Below, in pieces: positions 12,967 to 14,222 of a stretch of 64,000 bases of DNA (the stretch's first letter is position 1; the number at the start of each line of letters is the position of its first letter). This stretch comes from Streptomyces ortus (GTDB lineage: Bacteria > Actinomycetota > Actinomycetes > Streptomycetales > Streptomycetaceae). A program made the translations under genes and the position numbers. The stretch is from contig NZ_JAIFZO010000002.1 of the NCBI RefSeq assembly GCF_026341275.1, positions 5,672,118 to 5,736,117 on the forward strand, given 5' to 3'. Under the pieces are notes generated by a model, which saw only the letters and a list, made by a program, of their open reading frames with translations, was not told where the DNA came from and searched no databases.

Positions 12967-13194
12967 TCACTCCGGCTCGGGCAGCCGCAGGGGCTCCCTG
13001 AAGGGCCTCTCGACGTAGAACCTACGCACGTTGCGGCACTGCTCGGCCCCGTCGTCCAGCGGGGCCAAGCACACCAGGTACTCGTCGACGTTCTTCACGT
13101 CCAGGTGCTTCTTGAGCCAGGCCGCTTCCTTGGGCTTCAGGAAGCGGTGCTCCTCCTCGGGGCTCTTGCAGGTGACGCAACTCCTCATCGGCAT
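12967..13194 (-). CDS. Small conserved protein of unknown function, Cys-containing
   Basis: 75 residues beginning MPMRSCVTCKSPEEEH. An N-terminal CxxC and two later cysteines (VCLAPLDD, EQCRNV) suggest a small metal site. The C-terminus is rich in Arg, Glu and Pro. Codon use is normal for the chromosome. I believe similar proteins occur next to pepN in other Streptomyces, but I cannot name a family. It converges with the nitroreductase gene. Confidence 0.7.
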   Translation of the reverse strand: MPMRSCVTCKSPEEEHRFLKPKEAAWLKKHLDVKNVDEYLVCLAPLDDGAEQCRNVRRFYVERPFREPLRLPEPE

Positions 13195-13239
13195 CCCTCA
13201 CCATCACCCGGAGCCGCCCGTACCGGAAGGCCCCGAACA

Positions 13240-13278
13240 GGAAGGCCCCCGCGAGTCACGTCCTCGCGGGGGCCTTCC
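13240..13278. terminator. Strong hairpin terminator between divergent genes
   Basis: Perfect 16-bp arms (13240-13255 and 13263-13278) with a 7-nt loop. The flanking genes point away from it, so it terminates neither. It looks like the leftover end of a lost gene. Confidence 0.7.
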
Positions 13279-13335
13279 GTCCATCCGCCCGCCCCGCGTG
13301 AAAGGTGAGAAGACGATCACGAGGCCGAGCCCTTG

Positions 13336-13352
13336 TTGCAAGTCTCTTGCAA
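13336..13352. promoter_or_regulatory. Palindromic operator-like site TTGCAAG-N3-CTTGCAA
   Basis: A perfect 7+7 bp palindrome with a 3-bp centre, followed by half-site-like TGCAG and GCAAGAG. It resembles the TTGCAA/CTTGCA repeats found at Streptomyces alpha-amylase and maltose promoters (LacI-family MalR). No sugar gene follows. The rest of 13279-13640 holds no gene that I can support. Confidence 0.4.
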
Positions 13353-13640
13353 ATGCAGCCTGACAGCAAGAGTGCGGAGCGGTGTGTTCCTCCAGCGCAA
13401 CCGCAGGCGTGAGCGACGGGAGCGAGGAGGGTGTGCGGCGGGTCACGACGAGCCGCGGCCGGATCACCTCCCCTCCGTGACCAGCATCACGCCCCGACAG
13501 GTGTACGGCGCATCCTTTGTCGAAGGTGCACCAACCCCCGCCGATCCCCTTTGTCGACCACTGACGGAGAGACGCACAACCCCCCTGGGATAGCGTCACA
13601 ACGACCCCCGCCCTCACCCTCACCCTTCGCCGGAGCCCCG

Positions 13641-14222
13641 ATGACCACCGCCGTCGCCCAGACAACCCCGCGCCAGGTCCTCGCCGACCTCCTTCCCGCC
13701 TCCCGCGTCAGGGACATCGCACTCGTGGCGGGCGGCGCCGCGCTCACCGGCCTCGCCGCCCAGATCGCGGTGCCCGTCCCGGGCTCTCCGGTCCCGGTCA
13801 CCGGCCAGACCTTCGCCGCCCTCCTCGTGGGCACCGCGCTCGGCGCGGGCCGGGGCCTCGCCTCCCTCGCCCTGTACGCGCTGCTCGGCCTGGCCGGTCT
13901 GCCGTGGTTCGCCGAGGGCTCCTCCGGCGCCACCGCCTCCTTCGGCTACATCCTCGGCATGCTGCTCGCCGCGACCGTCGTGGGCGCCCTCGCCCGCCGC
14001 GGAGCCGACCGCTCGGTGGTCCGCATGGCGGGCGCGATGCTGCTGGGCGAGGCGGTCATCTACGCGATCGGCGTCCCGTACCTGGCCGTCGTCGCCGACC
14101 TGACGCCGGCCCAGGCCGTGGCGGCGGGCCTGACCCCGTTCCTCATCGGCGACGCCCTCAAGGCCGCCCTGGCCATGGGCGTGCTCCCGGCCGCCTGGAA
14201 GCTCGTCAAGCGCGAGAGCTGA
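13641..14222 (+). CDS. bioY: Biotin transporter BioY
   Basis: 193-residue S-component (substrate-binding membrane subunit) of an ECF-type biotin transporter, the usual length. About six hydrophobic segments are visible, with the BioY signature region GSPVPVTGQTFAALLVGTAL and the glycine-rich GRGLASLALYALLGLAGLPW. The start at 13641 gives MTTAVAQTTPRQVL. The frame is open upstream but has no RBS or coding character there. The ATP-binding and transmembrane partners BioM and BioN are not adjacent. A possible -10 (TAGCGT, 13591-13596) lies upstream. Confidence 0.92.
   Translation: MTTAVAQTTPRQVLADLLPASRVRDIALVAGGAALTGLAAQIAVPVPGSPVPVTGQTFAALLVGTALGAGRGLASLALYALLGLAGLPWFAEGSSGATASFGYILGMLLAATVVGALARRGADRSVVRMAGAMLLGEAVIYAIGVPYLAVVADLTPAQAVAAGLTPFLIGDALKAALAMGVLPAAWKLVKRES

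Follow-up and report, generated by a model that had tools for sequence, protein, structure and literature searches.

What is left in a genome when a terminator and an operator lie between two genes that both point away from them? We address this question for an intergenic gap of Streptomyces ortus, at positions 13195-13640 of a 64-kb stretch of its genome (the window, to which all positions refer). An earlier note on this DNA had read the gap as the ghost of a lost gene: a perfect 16-bp terminator serving neither flanking gene and, 57 bp further, a perfect TTGCAAG-TCT-CTTGCAA palindrome with extra half-sites and no gene to match, both attributed to the deletion of a starch- or maltose-related gene under MalR. 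Judging from sequence comparison, we consider it likely that the locus is instead a stand-alone gene for the small RNA (sRNA) s-SodF, made by deletion of the sodF coding sequence (CDS), with control by the nickel repressor Nur and direct output of the sRNA.

The parental system is that of Streptomyces coelicolor. According to PMC3919588, Nur represses sodF, which encodes an iron superoxide dismutase (Fe-SOD), and s-SodF is cut from the 3' untranslated region (3'UTR) of the sodF mRNA and destabilises the mRNA of sodN, which encodes the nickel enzyme (Ni-SOD). The same text gives the Nur-box consensus as tTGCaa-N5-ttGCAA, places the sodF transcription start 38 nucleotides (nt) before the ATG (Muller), reports two Fe-SOD genes in S. 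coelicolor, and describes a shorter sodN mRNA half-life when s-SodF was expressed without the sodF mRNA. Its authors detected no Nur box close to the s-SodF start and concluded that the RNA is derived from the mRNA.

In the 9.29-Mb genome of S. ortus, a single locus exceeds the gathering score (46 bits) of the Rfam family RF02790, and this is the minus-strand segment 13333-13240 (Table 1). The model score, the 19-nt sodN complement (anti-sodN) and the two stem-loops of the predicted fold, the second of which is the terminator of ~16 bp, place the RNA in this family. Weaker matches to Atu_L6, psaA and a plus-strand sodF_sRNA (34.4 bits) were all below the cut-off, the last of them overlapping the symmetric terminator. 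Anti-sodN is complementary at 19 of 19 positions to the 5' end of the genome's own sodN (G000:C2:3047160-3047516:-), and the predicted s-SodF:sodN dimer reaches -95.7 kcal/mol, compared with -63.1 and -11.1 kcal/mol for the monomers. The perfect terminator, the perfect palindrome and the divergence of the flanking genes were thus all described correctly by the earlier note; the terminator is nevertheless no orphan, as it belongs to s-SodF, and the view that there is no gene to match overlooked the sRNA gene on the minus strand between the two features. The leftovers between the CxxC protein gene and bioY look like a third, unannotated gene.

The palindrome, TTGCAAGTCTCTTGCAA, lies 57 bp past the stem-loop and is a perfect match to the published Nur consensus at the conserved promoter position. 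The pattern TTGCAANNNNNTTGCAA has a single match in the window, even allowing two mismatches, and no perfect match to it was seen in 100 dinucleotide shuffles of the window; base composition predicts ~0.04 perfect box matches in the entire genome. The box is therefore not a chance match. The genome contains the exact TTGCAAGNNNCTTGCAA form of the box a single time, and the extra half-sites that flank it, which are indeed present, are explained as the conserved sodF promoter core TTGnTGnTAGCnTGCA, found in intact relatives. The earlier proposal of a MalR operator surviving from a deleted amylase or maltose gene drew on the surface likeness of these TTGCAA repeats to motifs at alpha-amylase and maltose promoters, and none of the tests made supports it. 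Against this, the box fits the consensus printed in PMC3919588, the adjoining RNA is s-SodF, and all 25 of the sodF loci described below have a like box ahead of sodF at one and the same promoter position. Membership of a MalR regulon would place the site at a maltose or amylase promoter, whereas in relatives the like box is the sodF operator. We give the MalR explanation practically no credence, and the lost gene is sodF.

The earlier note had suggested looking in relatives for the missing gene, and there it is found. Among 121 genomes of the genus, S. ortus included, Fe-SOD lies within 40 kb of the neighbour gene pepN in 91, with two partial matches (G068, G117), and two further Fe-SOD genes (G017, G099) each share a broken contig with bioY. 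Fe-SOD is located elsewhere in 12 genomes and is missing from 16, and no genome of the 121 searched combines an Fe-SOD at the ancestral place with a second one. Overall, RF02790 scores over the cut-off in 100 genomes, Fe-SOD was detected in 105 and Ni-SOD in 118. We examined 25 sodF-bearing loci, 23 at the ancestral place and two at second loci, and in every one a like box (0-3 mismatches) stands before the CDS and s-SodF after it. In all 25, the anti-sodN core follows the start of the box by 699-782 nt, with an open reading frame of 213-224 aa in the interval; at the S. ortus locus the corresponding distance is 28 nt (17-nt box plus 11-nt gap). With no CDS in those 11 nt and the only Fe-SOD gene of the genome 2.2 Mb away, the S. 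ortus RNA falls outside the type processed from a functional sodF mRNA (type II). The same comparison bears on the case that the earlier note had named as refuting its reading, in which the palindrome regulates bioY (starting 288 bp away in S. ortus), and this case does not hold. What stays fixed is the position of the box with respect to sodF or s-SodF, which lie on the strand opposite to bioY, while bioY lies from ~0.3 kb to ~9 kb from the sRNA across relatives (about 9 kb in G109, 2.6 kb in G118), and we regard control of bioY by this site as very improbable.

Stand-alone loci of this kind recur within the genus. A strict pattern, with at most 61 nt allowed between the box and a 17-nt core, was found in 13 of 392 genus genomes, with no hit for the reversed control, and in 19 records of a named genome collection, eight of which were treated as duplicates of genus-set genomes. 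The RNA model contributed G022 and G101, bringing the set for alignment to 26 distinct loci. The gap between box and anti-sodN ranges from 8 to 78 nt, and the leader sequences that fill it are largely unrelated between clades. All 26 loci thus have at least 8 nt before anti-sodN; mapping of the S. coelicolor s-SodF placed its 5' end 7-8 nt before this sequence (PMC3919588).

A pepN DNA tree of 88 rows covered 22 of these 26 loci; L147, L153 and L157 (no pepN in the piece) and L158 (75 aa only) were left out, and the pepN of G013, at 55% identity probably a paralogue, was dropped. On this tree the 22 stand-alone rows need 13 state changes (5-95% range over 200 bootstrap trees, 13-13), of which 12 are forced by well-supported branches, suggesting that the sodF CDS was probably excised repeatedly. 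For the eight rows that were identified independently of the exact-core pattern, six changes are needed. G067 provides a before-and-after case, as it has no CDS and yet a promoter nearly identical to those of the CDS-bearing G104, G061 and G049, as expected of a local deletion. An intermediate is seen in G045, where a Nur-like box is joined to a remnant of ~20 codons from the end of sodF, followed by s-SodF with anti-sodN at 17/19.

Has the RNA been kept for use, or is the locus a true ghost, in which box and sRNA are undecayed relics of sodF without present function? Decay does occur in the genus, since G106 (L076), G013 (L081) and G087 (L082) hold terminator-only s-SodF remnants, with neither Nur box nor anti-sodN at the canonical place, and the altered -10-like element and first stem of the S. 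ortus copy are in line with a relic. Nevertheless, the S. ortus locus has a perfect box and a 19/19 anti-sodN, and in loci without a CDS these two parts are kept or lost together. Among 12 such loci found by the RNA model, all nine with a Nur-like box (G045 counted among them) have anti-sodN at 17/19 or better, and all three without a box at 10/19 or less (Fisher p 0.0045, on small numbers of related genomes and with an RNA model that favours anti-sodN loci). Stand-alone loci also occur in about a dozen separate lineages. The clade of five to which S. ortus belongs (with G364, G109, S. tauricus and G032) retains box and anti-sodN despite differing leaders, and in its sister row, G087, both are lost at the canonical place. 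Moreover, a second Fe-SOD without anti-sodN (at most 11/19) is present in nine of 13 strict-pattern genomes, where the stand-alone copy thus appears to be the sole anti-sodN source; in the remaining four (G067, G107, G216, G253) the second Fe-SOD locus carries 17-19 of the 19 positions. We consider a functionless relic unlikely, though clearly less so than either MalR or bioY control. What stands of the idea of a ghost is that a protein-coding gene was deleted and its control parts left; what does not is its emptiness, as the remains include an sRNA with intact target-pairing sequence.

Several points weigh against a working stand-alone gene created many times over. The -10-like element reads CAGGCT in S. 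ortus and TAGCCT in four clade mates. The first stem, too, is altered at several positions in its 5' part, even if the predicted fold retains two stem-loops; the S. ortus copy could therefore be weak or starting to decay. A generic scan for a sigma-70 promoter at the locus found none, its E. coli-type pattern being uninformative in this genus (a generic terminator scan, equally uninformative here, also returned nothing). Conservation in the strict-pattern rows is not independent evidence, because these were selected by the exact 17-nt core, and, pepN being linked to the locus, transfer of the region may account for some of what we attribute to repeated excision. Finally, G022 (L072) and G101 (L075) carry a stand-alone s-SodF, while Fe-SOD was not matched anywhere in either genome (a Cu-SOD-like match is present in G022), and switching off sodN in such genomes is hard to rationalise.

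The S. ortus genome also encodes a Nur protein. The FUR protein at G000:C2:4020774-4021094 matches structure 3eyy (E 2.3e-84), which we take to be S. coelicolor Nur. Among four FUR proteins, the three other than L172 were searched; the first was not Nur, the second was Zur-like, and this one was the third. The genome has sodN, and its sole Fe-SOD, at G000:C2:7890805-7891107 (L070), is separated from the window locus by 2.2 Mb; it is preceded by a Nur-like box with two mismatches and not followed by anti-sodN. As for a replacement enzyme of another type, no Cu-SOD was found in S. ortus; among 13 genomes searched for it, Cu-SOD scored over the cut-off in two (G022, G032), with one weaker match in G109.

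In the presence of nickel, Nur on the box would block transcription and Ni-SOD would be made. Without nickel, an RNA of ~95-111 nt would be produced directly, without processing from an mRNA, starting inside the box if the S. coelicolor sodF start position holds; the box sequence itself is predicted to be foldable into a small 5' hairpin in that case. Pairing of this RNA with the 5' end of sodN would cover the ribosome-binding region and destabilise the sodN mRNA, while Fe-SOD would be supplied by the second locus, which lacks anti-sodN and has a Nur-like box of its own. Enzyme and sRNA, once the outputs of a single ancestral transcript, would now be split over two loci. It seems reasonable to suggest, with somewhat less assurance than for S. 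ortus itself, that the sodF CDS was cut out between Nur operator and s-SodF in about a dozen lineages of Streptomyces, that the original promoter now makes the sRNA directly, and that the sRNA is the output selection keeps, the enzyme having a substitute at a second Fe-SOD locus except in G022 and G101, where it was not replaced. Most forks among the second-locus copies in the Fe-SOD tree are open.

Table 1. Features of the s-SodF locus of S. ortus and its neighbours (window positions).
Feature	Position	Strand	Basis or remark
s-SodF small RNA (Rfam RF02790 sodF_sRNA), no sodF CDS upstream	13240..13333	-	model match 1-90/90, 76.7 bits
Terminator stem-loop of s-SodF, 16 bp, 7-nt loop	13240..13278	-	arms 13240-13255 / 13263-13278, 100% complementary; -37.8 kcal/mol predicted
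19-nt anti-sodN pairing sequence	13306..13324	-	perfect complement of own sodN 5' end; paired in predicted two-strand structure
Nur box TTGCAA-GAGAC-TTGCAA (operator), 11 nt from anti-sodN	13336..13352	-	consensus match
Putative primary transcript, 111 nt	13240..13350	-	assumes sodF transcription start kept (38 nt before ATG, S. coelicolor, Muller)
-10-like element CAGGCT, putative promoter core, possibly weakened	13357..13362	-	comparison with G109, G364, L145, G032 and intact sodF promoters
75-aa CxxC protein gene, neighbour outside the sRNA gene	12967..13194	-	co-directional, 45 nt beyond the s-SodF terminator
bioY, divergent neighbour outside the sRNA gene	13641..14222	+	Pfam BioY

A few further observations concern the surroundings of the locus. 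Just beyond the terminator stem, CGGAAGGCCCC at 13224-13234 repeats one of its arms, and an alternative or duplicated hairpin is therefore possible. Before bioY there is a perfect 10-nt direct repeat, CCTTTGTCGA (13514-13523 and 13548-13557, 34 nt apart), a possible bioY control site. The 75-aa CxxC protein gave no Pfam match. Elsewhere in the genus, G047, G027, G095 and G120 (L225-L228) have a distinct Fe-SOD class of ~202 aa, encoded at a great distance from the canonical locus or on a separate contig; its Nur-like box has one mismatch, and anti-sodN is absent. G113 (480 contigs) has Fe-SOD and neither a Ni-SOD nor an s-SodF match, the sRNA apparently being absent where its target is absent. 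In G253, two equal-score Fe-SOD matches (C1:37968 and C1:11300183) lie near the chromosome ends, as in terminal inverted repeats.

The RNA family, the regulator and the target are already known, as is one species that retains anti-sodN after a deletion in the sodF2 CDS (PMC3919588). In line with the S. coelicolor s-SodF described there, the S. ortus RNA shares the family, the 19-nt anti-sodN, two stem-loops, the 16-bp terminator stem, the Nur consensus and the target sodN; unlike it, the S. ortus locus is devoid of a sodF CDS, and the promoter region with its Nur box directly adjoins the RNA. The closest precedent in that text (Kim et al.) is sodF2 (SBI_01257) of S. bingchenggensis BCW-1, whose CDS is partly deleted with anti-sodN kept. 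It resembles the S. ortus locus in its large coding deletion, its fairly good anti-sodN and an Fe-SOD supplied from a second locus, but there the deletion is in-frame, is known from one species and carries a sequencing-error caveat, whereas here the CDS is wholly absent, and in many lineages. MalH/MicX (PMC9438474) likewise combine, at one genomic place, an sRNA processed in one species and self-transcribed in another; no common target is known for them, whereas s-SodF loci keep both target and pairing sequence. RyhB and PrrF acting on sodB, as cited in PMC3919588, share the logic of the circuit: an sRNA directed against one SOD is repressed by a regulator of the Fur family, and that SOD is thereby activated. 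Both differ from s-SodF in their unrelated RNA and regulator. Neither is known to derive from an SOD mRNA.

We found no report of complete, recurrent CDS loss in the open-licence literature. What appears to be new is this complete loss, with a Nur operator fused to the sRNA in about a dozen lineages, and the split of Fe-SOD and sRNA over two loci. Our impression is that the question of how, or whether, processed 3'UTR sRNAs turn into genes of their own has mostly been argued from single examples. Here, one locus in one genus presents the full series from intact gene through partial deletion and complete excision to terminator-only relic, and many apparently independent excisions retain the same two parts. 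A test thereby becomes possible of whether, in an mRNA with two functions, selection can act more strongly on the RNA output than on the protein, and many Streptomyces genomes gain a regulatory gene that their annotation lacks.
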